Part shown: positions 9,428 through 60,368 of the stretch, one piece after another | How positions within the stretch are numbered: position 1 is the stretch's first letter | Layout: every line of letters starts with the position of its first letter | From: Batrachochytrium dendrobatidis JAM81 | Taxonomy: Eukaryota > Chytridiomycota > Chytridiomycetes > Rhizophydiales | Direction of reading: 5' to 3' | Assembly: GCF_000203795.2 (NCBI RefSeq) | Contig: NW_006281108.1 | Coordinates: forward strand, 315,868-379,867 | DNA length: 64,000 nt | Program-made: the position numbers and the translations under genes | The notes under the pieces: model-generated | Databases searched by the model: none | What the model saw: the letters and a program-made list of their open reading frames with translations, nothing else | What the model was told of the DNA's origin: nothing

Positions 9428-10420
9428 ATGGTTGTAGCAATCACTGCAGTTAGAATACTACTATGGAGTGCATTGTTTTGGGTTGTCCAGACCCGTGCCC
9501 ATCGTAAACCCAGATTCAGTAAGAACATCACCTACGAACTTGGAGCACCAGTGATCACTAATCAAGTCGATGTATACTGTGAGTCTTGCCAACATTTGCT
9601 GTAATGACGAGTCATGATAGTGTGGTTGTGCTAAATCATTTTGTTTTTGGGTTTAGACATCTATTACGGAAACTGGACTCCAAGCCAAAAAGCTTTGGTG
9701 GAGGACTTTACTAATGGACTCGGAGCATCCTCATGGTGGGGCATCATGACCAAATACTATTATCAGGCAACAGCATCGTCAGTCAAAATCCCAATCAAGG
9801 GATCGGTATCGTTAAGTGGAGCTGTAGCCGACCCAAACTACACTTTGGGTAGGTCACTCTCTGGTTCGGCACTCACAAACATAATCTATTCATACACTTC
9901 TACCGGTCGCCTTCCACTCAATACTCAAACGGGTGTTTACTTTGTCCTTACAAGCAGTGACGTAAATGTATCTCATGTCGACACGGCTCAAGGAGACACT
10001 GAAGTATTTTGTGAGGATTATTGTGGATTTCATAATACTGCTCGACTGCAGTCGGGTGATGTAATAAACTATGGACATACAGGGGATGCGACACATTGTC
10101 CAGGAAATGGATGCACACCTGCAATGAACCTGCAGGCATCCCCTAATGGTGATATAGGAGTCGATGCAGCAGTGTCAGTGATTGCCCACGAGCTTGCTGA
10201 AGCAGTATCAAATCCTGATCCAATGGGCAGTAGAGCTTGGCAAGATATGCTGTCGGCAGAGAATGGTGACAAGTGTGCGTTTGTATTTGGAGAAACCTCG
10301 ACCAATGCCAATGGAGCTAGCTATAATATGGGCTGGGGTCAACGCAAGTTCTTGGTGCAGCAAAACTGGGATCCAGAAGTTCAAGCTTGTGTTTCTGGAT
10401 ACGATCGCAATCTGAGGTGA
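9428..10420 (+). CDS. Secreted EXORDIUM/PHI-1-like protein
   Basis: Two exons, 9428-9578 and 9657-10420, 304 residues. The first 24 residues (MVVAITAVRILLWSALFWVV then Q-T-R-A) form a likely signal peptide. The body shows the EXORDIUM (phosphate-induced protein 1) layout: YYGNWTPSQKALVEDFTNGL, SSWWGIMTKYY, YFVLTSSDVNVS, FCEDYCGFHNT and a carboxy-terminal Cys. A segment AHELAEAVSNPDP sits where related non-plant members have a His-Glu motif. In plants the family is apoplastic and linked to growth and sugar responses; the biochemical activity is unknown. Homologs occur in bacteria, oomycetes and some fungi. Secretion to wall or medium is inferred from the signal peptide. Codon use does not look unlike its neighbours. 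Confidence 0.8.
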
Positions 10421-51942: not shown

Positions 51943-53013
51943 TCATGCAATGTCCATCGAAATATCGCCTGTGGTTGTGGTGGATTGTGATAATCGCCTA
52001 ATTGGCGACAAGACTCGGCGATGAGTTCTTGAATCTGAGTTGCGAATCGTACTATTGTATCCAGATCGATTGGGGGATGGAACTTTTAATCTTATGCCAG
52101 CGCTAGGATCAAATCGAATATTAGGCCTGAACAATACGAGTTGAGCATGTGCAGGATTGAATCGCATTCCTTGGCCTGCATCCAGTTCTTGCCAAGACCT
52201 TGTCAGTAGTACTTTTGGAATACCTCGAAACATTACTTGGCCAGTGGTAGTATGATCGTTGTCTTCCAGATCAGTTTCCCGCCCAGACTCGTCATCTTCT
52301 AAAATTGAATTGAGTATGAATTCTGAAGCTGCATCCTTTCCATTTGATTTATGTCGCTGTACATCCGGCTTTTTGTGAGATGACGGTGGAGAATCTTTTC
52401 TTTGTTTAAGCAATGTGTTGGGAGGCGACTGTCTGACTGGATGCTCAAGTTCATGCGAGCATTCTAATAAATAGTCGGCAGAGCCAAAAAGTGGTGAATC
52501 TGGAGCATGGTGGCTTGGGAAGGAAGCAAGAGTAAGCTTTGACAGTGTGTCTTGAAGGTCATTAAGCAATGCTATCTTTTTACGTGGGTTTAAATCTAAA
52601 CCAGGTGTATCCGAATGGTGCACCGACTTGCTGTTACGGCCTGGATCGCATATAGGAGAATGTTGTGTCAGAGTGATGACAGAGTCATGTTCAATCTCGT
52701 TGACTGCCATATGTTTCAGTTTATCTAGCACCAAATTTGTTTGTATATTGGCATGTGGTATGGAAGATGAATGAGCAACGGAAAGTTTTCCCAGTTTTTC
52801 CAACAAGACTGTATCTTGAGAATCAAGTCGGTCAAGACGACGGTAAGAGGCATTGTCTATCAAGTTGGTTTTAGTTGTGTAGCAGCGAGTGTCGATGCTG
52901 GGTTTGCTGACTGAATTGCTGCGATCCAAAGTATGGTTCGAGTCCAGACTCAAACCATCATCGACATCCATGTCAGCCATGGCAAGAAAAGTGCGTTTCT
53001 TGTTATATGACAT
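51943..53013 (-). CDS. Unknown Ser-rich protein
   Basis: Single exon, 356 residues; a second ATG at 52980 would start at MADMDVDDG. Largely disordered, rich in Ser, Asp, His and Thr, with short conserved-looking islands TLSKLTLASFPSHHAPDSPL, EFILNSILEDDESGRETDLE and GIPKVLLTRSWQELDAGQGM. Repeated Ser-Pro sites (LKVPSPN, LSPIRRLSQS) suggest phosphorylation by proline-directed kinases. No family recognised. Divergent from the kinase gene at 53319. Confidence 0.65.
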   Translation of the reverse strand: MSYNKKRTFLAMADMDVDDGLSLDSNHTLDRSNSVSKPSIDTRCYTTKTNLIDNASYRRLDRLDSQDTVLLEKLGKLSVAHSSSIPHANIQTNLVLDKLKHMAVNEIEHDSVITLTQHSPICDPGRNSKSVHHSDTPGLDLNPRKKIALLNDLQDTLSKLTLASFPSHHAPDSPLFGSADYLLECSHELEHPVRQSPPNTLLKQRKDSPPSSHKKPDVQRHKSNGKDAASEFILNSILEDDESGRETDLEDNDHTTTGQVMFRGIPKVLLTRSWQELDAGQGMRFNPAHAQLVLFRPNIRFDPSAGIRLKVPSPNRSGYNSTIRNSDSRTHRRVLSPIRRLSQSTTTTGDISMDIA

Positions 53014-53318
53014 TACAAGAAAGAGAAGACTGCTTGAATAAAACCGTTTTATGGCTCTTTAAACTGGTTCTAGAATGAAATCAAGTCGAAACAAAACTGA
53101 AGCTTTTGTGATTTTGGACAAAATTCCAGACAATTTGGCCAATATTTCTCGCTGGAATCTTGACTGCTTTCAACGGTATTCCAAGTTGCCTGAAATTCTT
53201 AAACTCTTGAATATTTGGATTCATTCGTTGTTGCCAACAATCGACTTTTGTATCCAAATCATCCCACTTTCATTCCAGTCCTGACAATACTCTTACAGCC
53301 TTTGATTCTACTTTTTCC
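53014..53318. other. Divergent promoter region
   Basis: 305 bases between the unknown Ser-rich gene and the kinase gene. A 70-codon open frame on the plus strand lacks family signal and is probably 5' leader. Confidence 0.45.
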
Positions 53319-56300
53319 ATGGCCAACATTCTCGCTTTGATCCAAACGGTGGTTCCTGTGCCTCTACTTGGCCCAATCATCAATATTGTCGAGCTTATTT
53401 CGACTGGCATTCTGGGCATGAGAGCCAACCAGTTTGCTTTCCGTGCATTTGGTGAACGACTTTGTCTGTTTGTGGTCACTCTCAATGAACATGCCAAAAT
53501 CAAAAGCTCCGATGGTGATGTTCCTGCAGTCATCAAGGACAATATTTCTGCTATTCAAAAACTGATGGAGCAGATTGAGGATTATGTTGATAGACATACC
53601 AGAATGAACGTTATCAGGCAGTTTCTAAAGCATTCTGATATTACTCGTCGTTTAGAACTATTTGATCAGCAACTAGTATCATACACACAGGTATATGGAT
53701 GATTTGCATTGTACAAAACCATACAACCTTTTCTTGCTGATCGTCTAATGTTCATTCGTTGCGTTGTCTATGTGCTCAACATTCATTTGCATTTAGAATT
53801 TGCAATTGAGAATTCAGTTTGATCAGCATCAGATGGTTGCTGAAATCAAAAATGATCAGATGAATACACTTCAAGCATTGGAAAAAATGCAGATTAATGA
53901 ACAGTGAGTGCATTGATTATCTCTATTCAACATCCAAATACCCGCTTTATTGACACTTTGTTTACACATGGTTTGACCCCATTCTAGGCTTCTTGAAACG
54001 CTTGTAGACATTGACCGTCTTGATATCGACGACTTTTCTCCTGAACTTCGTCCTCAAGTTCAAAACCTACTTAAAAATGCTAGAAACCACATCTCAAACA
54101 GATCCACACGAGGTCTCAAGTCAAGTAAAGACTGGACTGTGGAAAATTTCGAGGTTGAAATAGATTATCGCAATCCGATTGGACAAGGTGGGTTCGGTGT
54201 TATTTACAAAGGTCGTTGGAAGGGCCAAACAGTTGCTGTCAAGGTGGTTTCTTCTTCCCACAGAACCGATGCATCAGATCTCATAGAAAAAGAGGCTGCA
54301 ATCTGGTATAATCTAAACGATCCCAATATTGTCAAGCTCTGGCGTGTTTGTGTAAATGCTGATAATCCATTCATTGTCATGCCTCTTATGCGCTGCGACG
54401 CAGCAGCATATATTCGAGATAACCCTCAAACAGAAATGGCGGTTCGTACGTATATTATATTGCAGATTGCTAGCGGCATGAAATACCTGCATGATTTGTC
54501 TCATCCAATTATTCATGGAGATCTCAAGGCCAATAATGTGTTGATTGGGATGAATGGAGAAGTTGCTTTGTCCGACTTTGGCATGGCGTCACTCAAACAA
54601 TTTTGCTACAGCAAAAACCATCACGAACCACAGACTTTTGCTACTCGATGGATCGCCCCGGAAAAATATAATGCCGATTATACTTCAGCCACGCCAGCTG
54701 ATGTATTTTCATTTGCCATGACTTGTGTAGAGATTTTATCGGGTCAAGCTCCATTCCCTGATGAAAAATACGATGATGTGGTTAAAGATGCCATTATCTC
54801 GGGAAGTCGACCGAAACAACCTCCAGGGGTTTCTGATGCTTTATGGCAAATTGTAACAAGCTGTTGGCATCACGATCCAGAACAGCGTCCTACCTTTGGT
54901 CATGTTATGAGCAGGCTTACTCGTGAGCATACCAAGCGTCTTCCGCCTTTTAATGCTGATTCCTTTCAAAGTTTATCCCACATTTATCCAGGTAATTTTT
55001 CGATTCAATACCTTTTCGATTCAATCATCTAGTCAAGTGTTGTTGAATCAATGTTTTTTATTGTTTAGAGCTGCATGAAAATCATTTTCCACCTTCTTTT
55101 GTGTCCAATTCCACTCAAGCTCTGCCATTGCGTTCATCTTACAATCGAGATGATAGAGGCTCCTTTACTGTTGGCTCATTTGCTCCTTCAGCGCAGCCTC
55201 CATCTTACAACTCACACAATAGCTCAGCTATACTTCGTCACAATTCTAAAGTTGACAGGACCGATTACCCAACGCGTACAGCAGGCTCGACTGGTTATAC
55301 AGGACCAATAGATTTGGCTCAAGGAGTTGGCTTACAATTGAATTTGAACAATAGCCAAGCTTCCGAGTTGGTTTATGGTCAAACTATTTATAATGCATCT
55401 AGCTCCTCTTTTGCAAATCCTACTCAACAGCAAAGACAACAATCCAGCTATTCGTCTTTTCAAAATATACAGACGATCGGAACTCCAAATGGCTTGACTC
55501 AATCTGCATACAAAATGTCTGTTTCTCCTCAGCCTATTGAGTACAACACTGTTACTTCTAGCGTGCATCAATCCACATCACCACGTCCATTGGCAAATTT
55601 TCCATCATCGCCTAAATCAGGATATTTGGAGCCTTATGCTAATATCGGGGGTTCGGTACCAAACAGTTTTGTTGCTCCTTACACGAATTCTTCGCCTTCG
55701 TTACATTACTCGGCTTCTGCACGTGGCAGTGATATTGATTTATTGTTACGACTATTTCCTTCCTGGGCACAATCCCATGGTATTACTGTATCAAATTTTC
55801 AAAATATTGTTGATACAGTGAATGAGGACAATGTCAAACAGCCTATTCTCCGTGCTGGTTATGATGGACGCATTCATGAATTGTATGTTTATATTGTTAT
55901 TGTGCCGTTTTGTGGTCTTGTTGATTTAATTTATTGAGAATGCTGCTTGCTTTATTTGGGTGTTTAGGCGCATTTTGAACATGCCGATTCGTAATCCTCT
56001 GCCATCCGAGATTGTACTTTTTGCAAATCTTGGTCACTTGTAAGTGGTGGTTATTTTTAAATTCTTATATGCGACTTTGATATGGCTAGTACCATTCATC
56101 ATCTTTACTTATTGAATATAAATTGTAGGTGGATTGAGCGCTGCTGTTTAAATGGACATATTCCGTCAACGATAGGCAATCTGACTTCCATTACTCGACT
56201 GTAAGCATAATAGAGCTTTTGCTTTGGCAACTATATAGTTTTATTTTTAAAAATGCTTGATACTTTGGATGCATGTGTTTAATTGTTTTGTACTTTTTAG

Positions 56301-57054
56301 TGATCTTACCAATAATGAGTTGTCAGGGTCAATACCTGAATCTATTGGAAATCTACATCAGTTAAAGCATCTGTAAGTTGAATGGTGCCTTTGATAAATA
56401 TCGAAACGTTTGACTTTTCTAAACAACCATGCAGTGATTTGAGTTGTAATAAGCTATCTGGATCCATCACACCATCGCTATTTAACCTTGTCCAACTTGA
56501 ATTTCTGTAAGTATTGACCATTATACGATTGCACTGGAATGAATTTTTGGCTGATATTTCCACCATTGGTTTTAGCAATTTAAGCACCAATAGTTTATCT
56601 GGAGTAATCCCTAATGAGATTGGACAACTATGGAGGCTCAAGGGAGTGTAAGTCTATCAATATTGCTCAATTCAATATCTTTGAATTGTATACTAATTTG
56701 ATTAATTTGCATGTATCACCAATTCATTAGCGATTTGGAGGGAAATAAATTTAATGGGCGAATTCCTAGCGGATTGGGTAATCTCAAGCAGCTCCAGACA
56801 CTGTAAGCAAGATTTGATGTAGTTTAAAGTTTGGTTTGTATAAAAGCTTCGAGTTTGGTGTGGATTGGCAACTAACTCTAGCTTTGCCTTTTGTATTTGG
56901 CATGTTTGTTGCTAGGGATCTTTCCAACAATGAGTTTTCAGGCGATGTTTCACCAGAATTGTCTAATATGCAATCTCTGACTCAAGTTAATATGGACTGG
57001 CATCTTTTATCGTCGATACCGACTTTTATCTACCAACTTCGGGCCATGAATTAG
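53319..57054 (+). CDS. MLKL-like helical domain, TKL kinase and plant-type LRR protein
   Basis: Eleven exons: 53319-53690, 53797-53903, 53988-54991, 55069-55882, 55968-56039, 56129-56200, 56301-56372, 56435-56506, 56576-56647, 56731-56802, 56916-57054; 955 residues, all phases consistent. Residues 1-200 form a helical bundle starting VVPVPLLGPIINIVELISTG with a later FDQQL and heptads, like the MLKL/HeLo-type amino domain. Residues about 215-475 are a TKL kinase: GQGGFG (225), VAVK Lys245, HGDLKANN (Asp338), SDFG (Asp356), APE (383). A 280-residue Ser/Asn/Gln-rich linker follows. The end holds seven LRRs of plant type (DLTNNELSGSIPESIGNL, DLSCNKLSGSITP and so on). No signal peptide or membrane helix, so cytoplasmic or membrane-peripheral. 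Likely a sensor or cell-death type kinase; that function is inferred. Confidence 0.88.
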
Positions 57055-57466: not shown

Positions 57467-60368
57467 ATGCCATTAGGATACAGAGACGGTCATATGCAAA
57501 ACCCATCTCATACTATCTGGAAACCTCCATCTGTTCCTGCAGCATCTCCGGCATTGACAGATACGCCAGTGAGTCAATACTTGATTGATATTCAGCATGC
57601 ACAATCACTTTCAAATCTCAATAATTAAACACTGATTGAATCATGTGGCATGATGTTTTAGTCTGTATGGACAGCATTCAAAAATCCCGAAGGAAAACCT
57701 TATTATTTCAACAGTGTTACTCAGCAAAGCGTATGGGACAAGCCAGATGAACTAAAAACTCCACTCGAGGTACGCTATACTCTTGAATACTATGCTGATG
57801 ACAATAATTCTATTGAATGACCCAACTGATTTTCATAAATCTGTGCGTATTTTAAACTGGATTTAGCTGATACTGGATGCTTCCCATTGGAAAGAATACG
57901 CTACTCCGGAAGGGAAAAAGTACTATAGCAATTCTGAAACCAAAGAAACTGTGTGGGATCTACCAGCAGAGATTCAAGGTGAGCTTTATGTTTTACGAGA
58001 TCCAAAGTGTATACGTTTGAATAGCATTTTTGCTTGAACGGCTATTAAATCTTTTTGGTATGATGAAATGGTTTAATGCGTGAACAGAAAAACTCAAAAA
58101 GGAAATGGCAGTAAAGGAGGAAGTTGAAAAGAAAGAAATTGAAAAGAACGATAAAATTCCCGATCCATCTGGAGCAGCTGTCTTAGGTCTTGACACTCCC
58201 CAAGTCGCGGTGGCACAGATCGTTCTTGATTTTAAAACTAAAGAAGAAGCCGAAGAAGCTTTCAAGAAAATGCTTTGTGAAACAGTAAGTTTGGCTTACT
58301 GTTTAAATTCAATAGATGCCAGTTTGATTGTCGATCTACTTGGCTCATGTGTGTTTTGGAATCATATGGCATAGCCTGGCATTGATTGCACAAGTTCTTG
58401 GGAATCAGTTATTCGAAAAACATATAGCAAGCCATACTATCGATCTCTTAGAACACTTGCTGAACGCAAGGCAACATTTGAAAAATGGTGCCGAGACACT
58501 CGCTTAGCTCAAAGCGATGCTAGACGTGAAAAGAAAGAAAAGGATCGCGCTGCACTTATAGCTTTGTTTAAATCGCATCCTGAAATTACTGGAAATACCC
58601 CATTTGCGACTGCTACCTTTATACTAGCAAAAGAAGGCGATTTTGCCAATGTGGAAAAGGAATTTAGACAACTCGTATATCAGGAATATACTGATAAGCT
58701 TGTCAAAACTGAACAGGTATATACTAGACTTTTACTGTTTATGCATTTAAGCTATTTTTAGAAGCCCATTAAACTTTTTTGAATTCATTTACAGGAAGCT
58801 GCGCGTGAATTACGGCGTAAAAATAAGGAAAAGGCAAAAGCCATTTTTAATGAACTACCAATTACATACAAAACGACTTGGAAAGAGGCACAGGCCATTA
58901 TGTCTGAGCATGGTGGTTTCCGTGCAGATGCAGATCTTAATGCAATGGAGCCCGTGGATATTTTAACTGTATTTGAAGACCACGTTATTACTTTGGATAC
59001 TGCTGCTCGACATGATCGCGATACATGGCAACGTGCTATTCGACGCAAAGAACGTAAGATTCGCGATGATGTCCGTGCTCTTTTAGACGAACTTTGTTCC
59101 TCTGGCTTGATACATGCAAAAGCAAAATGGAAGGACGTATATCCTCACATCAAAGAAGATTCTCGCTTTAATGCCATTCTTGGCCAACCTGGATCTACCC
59201 CACTTGAACTATTTTGGGATATGATTTGTGATCTTGAAGGAAAATATCGTTTTGACAAGCGGGTTGTTGGTAATTATATCAAGGTGAGTTGTCTAGTTAT
59301 TCTATATCTCATTATTCAAGCTAGTGTGTGTGCTGTTTACCTATGCCAATTCAACATGATTAATGAATTTTCTCTCACATACTGCATACATTTCTAGGAT
59401 AATAAAATCGATATTACTCCAAAAAGCAAGTTTGATGAATTCATTAAACAACATAGTTCAAAACTAAGCCAAGTCAATCGATCTCATCTACGGTATATAT
59501 TTGAAGACGTAAGTATATTTGAAATATTTAAATCTATGAAACTGATTTGTAATTAAAAGTAAACATGATTTACCTTGGTTCTGATGTATTACCAAGTATC
59601 AATTCAAGGCTTTTGCTCGAATCAAGGAAGAAAAGAAGAATCATGAACGTAGACTACGAAAACGGATGGATGCATTCAAATCTTTGTTGAAACATTTGCC
59701 GGGTACTCCAATCAAAACGGATGACGAGTTTTCCAACATAATGAGTCGAGTACAAGGCAAACCTGAATATGATGCATTGGACGCAAGTCAAAGACGCGAG
59801 GTATTTGACAAATATATTGTCAGACTCAAGGAAAACCAAAGCAAAGGTGCCGATCCCAGTGACATGGATGACATTGAAGATGGAGAAGATATTGAAGATG
59901 GAGAAGGGGAAGATGATGGTAAGCGTCGTAAAATAAGTCGTAATTCACGGGATCGCAGACAAAACTATCGCAGTAGACGATCCCGATCTATATCACCTCG
60001 ATCAAGTAATGGCTCTGTTGATGGATATCGTGACCGTAGTCGTACAGTTTCAAGTAAACGCAAGGTATGGTGCTTGTTCAGTATATTGTAGTTGAATTCT
60101 TGGTACATTGTTATCATGTCTAATCCACGATTGTCATTCTTTTATTAACTGGTGATTTGAACATTTTTGAATAAAGAACCGATCTGTTTCTGGATCGGAA
60201 TCCGATATATCTGATGGCCACCGCAGCTCCTCCAATTACAAAAAGGAAAAGCGCTCCAGACATTATGATGCTGATCATGAGGAAAGATTTAGTCGGAGTG
60301 AGCGTTCTAAGCGGCAGGACAAGGCTCGTGAGTCTTCGACCGAGGAAGAAGGAGAGCTGCATGCATAA
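57467..60368 (+). CDS. PRP40: U1 snRNP splicing factor Prp40 (WW-FF)
   Basis: Nine exons: 57467-57568, 57662-57769, 57867-57978, 58088-58284, 58375-58716, 58795-59283, 59398-59508, 59609-60064, 60177-60368; 702 residues. Two WW domains (WTAFKNPEGKPYYFNSVTQQ and WKEYATPEGKKYYSNSETKE), then FF domains (TSSWESVIRKTYSKPYYRSL, TYKTTWKEAQAIMSEHGGF and others), and an Arg/Ser-rich tail (RRSRSISPRSS). Prp40 bridges the 5' splice site U1 snRNP to the branch-point protein. The exon 8 acceptor could also be 12 bases upstream (59597), adding YQFK in frame. An acidic DIEDGEDIEDGEGEDDG block precedes the RS tail. A repeat-family end follows the stop. Confidence 0.93.

Follow-up and report, generated by a model that had tools for sequence, protein, structure and literature searches.

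Fungi and plants are already known to have kinases with an N-terminal domain of the MLKL or HeLo type. In fungi, some HELL domains have been described as linked to a kinase or a pseudokinase (PMC12881547), fungal MLKL homologues have been reported exclusively in Glomeromycotina, where they carry Sel1 repeats (PMC8778642), and plant MLKL and Pm13 run from an MLKL_NTD through a brace to a kinase (PMC10951266). Four genes of the chytrid Batrachochytrium dendrobatidis that combine leucine-rich repeats (LRRs) with a kinase, and lack a membrane helix, have also been noted, in an account whose passages on these four mention neither an N-terminal bundle nor the states of the kinases (PMC2939053). The gene considered here, which is probably one of the four, lies at 53319-57054 (+) of a 64,000-nucleotide stretch of B. 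dendrobatidis JAM81 (contig NW_006281108.1, positions 315,868 to 379,867; the whole stretch is called the window below) and encodes, in this order, an MLKL-like bundle, a kinase that appears catalytically complete and plant-type LRRs. The chytrid family with this layout is new here: among the matches listed in searches of openly licensed papers, no title, abstract opening or passage linked chytrids with an LRR-bearing kinase of the MLKL type, and neither the LRR version, nor its presence in chytrids, nor a split into intact and pseudokinase members was found there. Overall, the family appears to be a real LRR variant of a known bundle-kinase kind, and the mechanism that can be proposed for it is attractive.

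The gene model reads in one open frame from an ATG at 53319 to a stop codon ending at 57054, as the initial annotation had claimed, with 11 exons, 10 introns that are all GT..AG and 62-113 bases long, and a product of 955 amino acids; the public B. dendrobatidis protein BDV3_002027 (955 amino acids) agrees with it, the single difference being at residue 708. Exon 1 (53319..53690, on the + strand like all the exons and motifs that follow) encodes residues 1-124, which comprise a hydrophobic pair of helices at the N-terminus (residues 2-31) and the helical bundle of MLKL_N type. Pfam MLKL_N matches residues 17-145, scoring 28.8 bits when the whole protein is searched and 33.1 bits when residues 1-209 are searched alone (cut-off 27). 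An AlphaFold2 model of residues 1-215, with a predicted local distance difference test (pLDDT) score of 88.3, places helices at 2-10, 15-31, 38-62, 70-94, 98-103 and 105-125; exon 2 (53797..53903, residues 125-159) adds a predicted brace-like helix at 134-154, and a second brace-like part of the linker follows in exon 3. The predicted fold is a four-helix bundle with a brace, as in MLKL, and its top four structural matches are MLKL executioner domains; taken alone, these fold scores are not decisive. When the single N-terminus was searched by sequence against solved structures, no MLKL was among the four matches (best E 0.35), and when a profile of 20 N-termini was used, MLKL was found at 7e-8 and made up the first 7 of the 31 matches listed. 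As that profile took in one Sel1-type MLKL_N protein and three basidiomycete rows, and as a chytrid-only control profile (built from 9 of its 16 chytrid rows) was weaker, with MLKL in 7 of 23 matches at 0.017-0.17, the value of 7e-8 is not independent proof. The bundle did not match a coiled-coil control, and HeLo-type Pfam profiles were absent from the matches at E up to 1, in a search where the HMMER filters drop weak matches. Pfam, profile-profile comparison and the predicted fold together support an MLKL-like N-terminal domain, and on this point the initial annotation was borne out.

The entire kinase is encoded by exon 3 (53988..54991, residues 160-494, including the start of a disordered linker) and covers residues 216-471 (54154..54921), where Pfam PK_Tyr_Ser-Thr scores 180.3 bits (cut-off 23.1). 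Judged by this Pfam family and by its nearest solved kinases, which include TNNI3K and Roco4, it would be of the TKL type. It retains K245, E262, D338, N343 and D356: the ATP-anchoring lysine stands in a VAVK motif (K245 codon at 54241..54243), the HRD motif reads HGD (H336-G337-D338, 54514..54522), as in most of the fungal kinases compared, and the DFG motif is present (D356-F357-G358, 54574..54582). These residues support a catalytically complete kinase, as had been annotated, so that the pseudokinase half of the MLKL layout invoked at the same time does not apply to this gene, although it does apply to paralogues described below. Like animal MLKL, the window protein has an MLKL_N-type N-terminus and a predicted bundle with brace-like helices, followed by a domain of the kinase fold; unlike it, it has an extra helix before helix 1, carries a kinase that is complete by sequence and does not end after the kinase, as LRRs follow. 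Animal MLKL also has a partner in RIPK3, and none is known for the window protein. An extra N-terminal helix and a short helix between helices 3 and 4 are shared with the MLKL-like domains of basidiomycetes (BaMLKL), and some fungal HELL domains have a kinase or pseudokinase partner (PMC12881547, PMC9815663), but the window protein differs from the fungal HeLo/HELL and BaMLKL proteins in its chytrid lineage and in adding LRRs as a third module. Pfam searches at E up to 1 gave no match to NACHT, NB-ARC or ROC-COR in it. Plant MLKL and Pm13 have the same order of bundle, brace and kinase; LRRs go unmentioned in the relevant passages on them, and the Pm13 kinase is assigned to the plant LRR_8B subfamily (PMC10951266).

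Exon 4 (55069..55882, residues 495-765) continues the low-confidence linker (482-713, pLDDT <50) and encodes a pre-LRR cap (about 714-762), whose motif D..LL.AFP.W....GIT is also present in relatives. Exons 5-10 are each exactly 72 bases long with phase-2 introns and encode one repeat per exon. Exon 5 (55968..56039) encodes a degenerate first LRR, known from the gene model and missed by a pattern scan; exons 6 (56129..56200), 7 (56301..56372), 8 (56435..56506), 9 (56576..56647) and 10 (56731..56802) each encode a single LRR found by both, and exon 11 (56916..57054, 139 bases, from the gene model) encodes a full LRR, a partial LRR and the stop codon. Six units of the array are clearly of the plant type, besides a degenerate one at its start and a partial one at its end, so that the seven repeats counted originally are a fair estimate. 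LRR exons of 72 bases and phase 2 recur in two paralogous loci, eight on contig 26 and four on contig 1, and the pattern is absent from the reversed or complemented sequence of both. The scan also picked up a few unrelated hits that differed in length, from the window, the contig 1 locus and the window's control; the control produced six, every one of them within the 64-kb window, and not one was 72 bases long. The repeats align one-to-one with those of the B. salamandrivorans protein P0002, at 60.6% identity and with an equal repeat count, and the 19 LRR exons of three genes compared are at most 65.3% alike in any pair; for these reasons there is no sign of recent LRR exon shuffling. In brown algal ROCO proteins each LRR likewise occupies a 72-bp phase-2 exon, but there these exons undergo shuffling (PMC11378527). 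Among solved structures, the LRR part is matched best by plant LRR receptors, and plant LRR receptor kinases (FLS2, MIK2, ERL1) share its consensus. However, the domain order is inverted relative to those receptors, as first annotated, since by Pfam the kinase precedes the LRRs; there is no membrane helix between the two, and the kinase falls outside the plant rows of the tree described below (100/100). The plant resemblance is one of consensus. A full-length model (pLDDT 70.7, predicted template modelling score 0.49, 17 sequences) is confident for the kinase and the LRR part, has residues 482-713 disordered and residues 1-13 at low confidence, and does not settle the packing of the domains; kinase and LRRs are predicted to be joined by a disordered tether.

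Homologues were sought with the whole window protein and with the N-terminus and kinase of a relative. The first search recovered the window gene alone out of 573 candidates (E up to 1); later searches, taking the best 120 of 1911 and 120 of 831 matches, so that the family counts are lower bounds, found relatives in B. salamandrivorans, Polyrhizophydium stewartii, Entophlyctis helioformis and Homolaphlyctis polyrhiza. NCBI taxonomy assigns E. helioformis to Chytridiales; Rhizophydiales takes in B. dendrobatidis, P. stewartii and H. polyrhiza. A kinase tree was built from 49 rows, hand-chosen from 230 proteins plus the two paralogues, and in it 28 chytrid rows from five species form one clade (99/95) with the window kinase inside it, apart from five plant rows and an adjoining moss row (100/100); the LRR-bearing Boothiomyces kinase P0161 falls outside. 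Of the 28 clade rows, 25 have LRRs after the kinase and three (P0121, P0122 and P0131) have none listed; the recurrence of this order supports the annotated union of kinase and LRRs in one gene. The presence of the bundle cannot be stated for all 28 rows: the models of P0002 and P0022 start late, P0053 carries a different N-terminus, P0129 and P0131 are partial at that end and P0133 has additional LRR-like repeats in front. P. stewartii accounts for 18 of the 28 rows, which fall into at most 12 clusters at 90% kinase identity, and its two annotation series may count some genes twice. The search for paralogues with the same domain order that had been suggested at the outset gave at least three members in B. 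dendrobatidis (genome of 23.5 Mb in 33 contigs).

Some proteins in and around this tree have unusual models or names. P. stewartii P0121 has, in one model, two kinase domains and after them a cytochrome b561 domain, possibly through fusion or a model error, and P0122, P0124 and P0129 of the same species are publicly named 'U1 snRNP protein', apparently in error. The moss Ceratodon proteins P0169, P0171 and P0185 carry an MLKL_N label, after which a kinase with degenerate motifs (HGEL, DFH) stands in tandem with a complete one, as pseudokinase and kinase. At contig 21:543500-550000, an MLKL_N-like piece (24.2 bits, below the cut-off) lies upstream of a long kinase reading frame whose end looks WD40-like by eye and which has only weak kinase matches to the chytrid family; this is perhaps another MLKL_N-kinase with a different sensor. 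A further candidate (C12, locus L040) was dropped, as it did not match any of five family proteins.

The clade contains both intact and degenerate kinases: 21 of the 28 rows keep the lysine, the catalytic aspartate and the DFG aspartate, and seven do not. Two of the seven are the B. dendrobatidis paralogues, both with the bundle-kinase-LRR layout, at contig 26:449500-456500 (K to Q, catalytic D to E) and contig 1:2109500-2116500 (K to T, DFG to NFG); their N-termini match that of the window protein at E 1.2e-9 and 0.005 respectively. From these substitutions the two would be pseudokinases that have lost activity. The others are P0022 (K to Q, D to N), P0137 (all three residues lost), P0122 (both aspartates lost), P0133 (K to Q only) and P0125 (HGN and a gap at DFG, perhaps a model error). 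All three B. dendrobatidis lines recur in B. salamandrivorans. The window gene pairs with P0002 (100/100), the two kinases being 67.2% identical and both intact; the contig 1 gene pairs with P0137 (100/100, 59.8% identity) and the contig 26 gene with P0022 (99/86, 47.1% identity), P. stewartii P0133 adjoining the latter pair (100/99). On this tree, both degenerate lines appear to predate the split of the Batrachochytrium species, and one of them the split from Polyrhizophydium. Their retention across species argues that they are in use.

The initial annotation held that nothing spans the membrane. This stands for the interdomain regions. The pair of helices at the N-terminus, however, is hydrophobic and is the sole stretch of the protein with a mean hydropathy above 1.6 (19-residue maximum 1.85); prolines 13, 15 and 19 interrupt it, and beyond residue 35 no 19-residue window exceeds 1.2. 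Across the family, the maximum ahead of a conserved AN motif, taken at aligned positions, has a median of 1.51 in intact rows (18 rows) and 0.69 in degenerate rows (6 rows; one-sided Mann-Whitney p 0.0012), and lies below 1.2 in five of the six degenerate rows and three of the 18 intact ones. P0129 (too short) and P0002, P0022 and P0053 (models lacking the N-terminal part) are omitted. The contrast persists when the intact rows are thinned to one for each 90% cluster (13 rows, p 0.001 to 0.002) and when the degenerate rows are collapsed to three lines (p 0.007); kinship is handled only through these clusters and merged lines, with about three independent degenerate lines. This is a lead that the active kinase may be the one to keep the membrane-active part, opposite to the division of labour between RIPK3 and MLKL.

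We propose that the window protein may be an LRR-gated sensor that turns on the fungus's own defence or cell death, a reading that we hold to be about evenly balanced between right and wrong. The LRRs would bind a ligand and, until then, keep the kinase or the bundle inactive; the released kinase would phosphorylate itself or the degenerate paralogues, phosphorylation would unlock the brace, and the hydrophobic N-terminal helices would insert into a membrane of the fungus, causing damage or cell death. The degenerate paralogues, which tend to lack the hydrophobic stretch, would be regulators or co-sensors and not executioners. In its fullest form, this would be a necroptosis-like self-killing immunity with sensor, kinase and membrane executioner in one protein, two ancient pseudokinase sisters regulating it and the RIPK3 and MLKL roles swapped, which we offer only tentatively and think rather unlikely to hold in every part. 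If this fullest form is true, an immune receptor with LRRs would act inside the cell in the fungal kingdom, for which the account that also lists the four LRR kinase genes reports that LRR pattern-recognition receptors are absent (PMC2939053). If the mechanism holds, early-diverging fungi would possess an intracellular alarm that is built on LRRs and linked to an effector of the MLKL type. With intact and degenerate lines preserved together, the way in which RIPK3 and MLKL came to divide their labour could be studied comparatively outside animals.

The main rival is that the protein is an ordinary cytoplasmic signalling kinase, in which the bundle only dimerizes or acts as a scaffold and the LRRs are bound by an internal partner; it would signal in growth, zoospores or stress, with no membrane damage. 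We regard this as a realistic possibility. The completeness of the kinase and the presence of TNNI3K and Roco4 among its nearest solved relatives are in keeping with it, and the conservation of the LRRs counts in its favour and against an immune sensor: repeat number is equal in the two Batrachochytrium species, and the rapid turnover that one might expect of such a sensor is not seen in the limited likeness of the 19 exons. Set against it are the specific MLKL match of the bundle, the hydrophobic N-terminus, the many P. stewartii rows and the keeping of degenerate lines in two species. Those same lines, two degenerate beside one intact in both Batrachochytrium species, would also suit a RIPK3-MLKL-like pair in the mammalian sense, with the window protein as the upstream kinase and the degenerate paralogues as membrane executioners; the low hydropathy of most degenerate N-termini speaks against this without being decisive, and we consider it doubtful.

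As B. dendrobatidis is an amphibian pathogen, a factor directed at the host was also considered. However, P. stewartii, described as a nonpathogen outgroup (PMC12204190), contributes more of the rows listed with this layout, other chytrids share it, and a kinase with such a bundle looks intracellular, so that this role seems very unlikely. The occurrence in P. stewartii means, in turn, that the family could be studied without a pathogen. Finally, the long disordered stretch between kinase and LRRs could suggest that two or three adjacent genes have been read as one, but with the agreement of the public model and the recurrence of kinase followed by LRRs across five species, such an artefact is the most improbable of these explanations. 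The LRR-gated sensor remains our preferred reading of the window gene.

The surroundings of the gene contain a 371-codon open frame at 51943-53058 (-), the first ATG of which lies about 300 bases from the start of the window gene on the opposite strand and which has no Pfam match at E up to 0.001. Downstream, at 57662-59394 (+), is a gene with the domains WW-WW-FF, which we take to be Prp40-like. Further away in the window, 9635-10420 (+) encodes a Phi_1 (phosphate-induced protein 1) domain at 128.1 bits, a family best known from plants.
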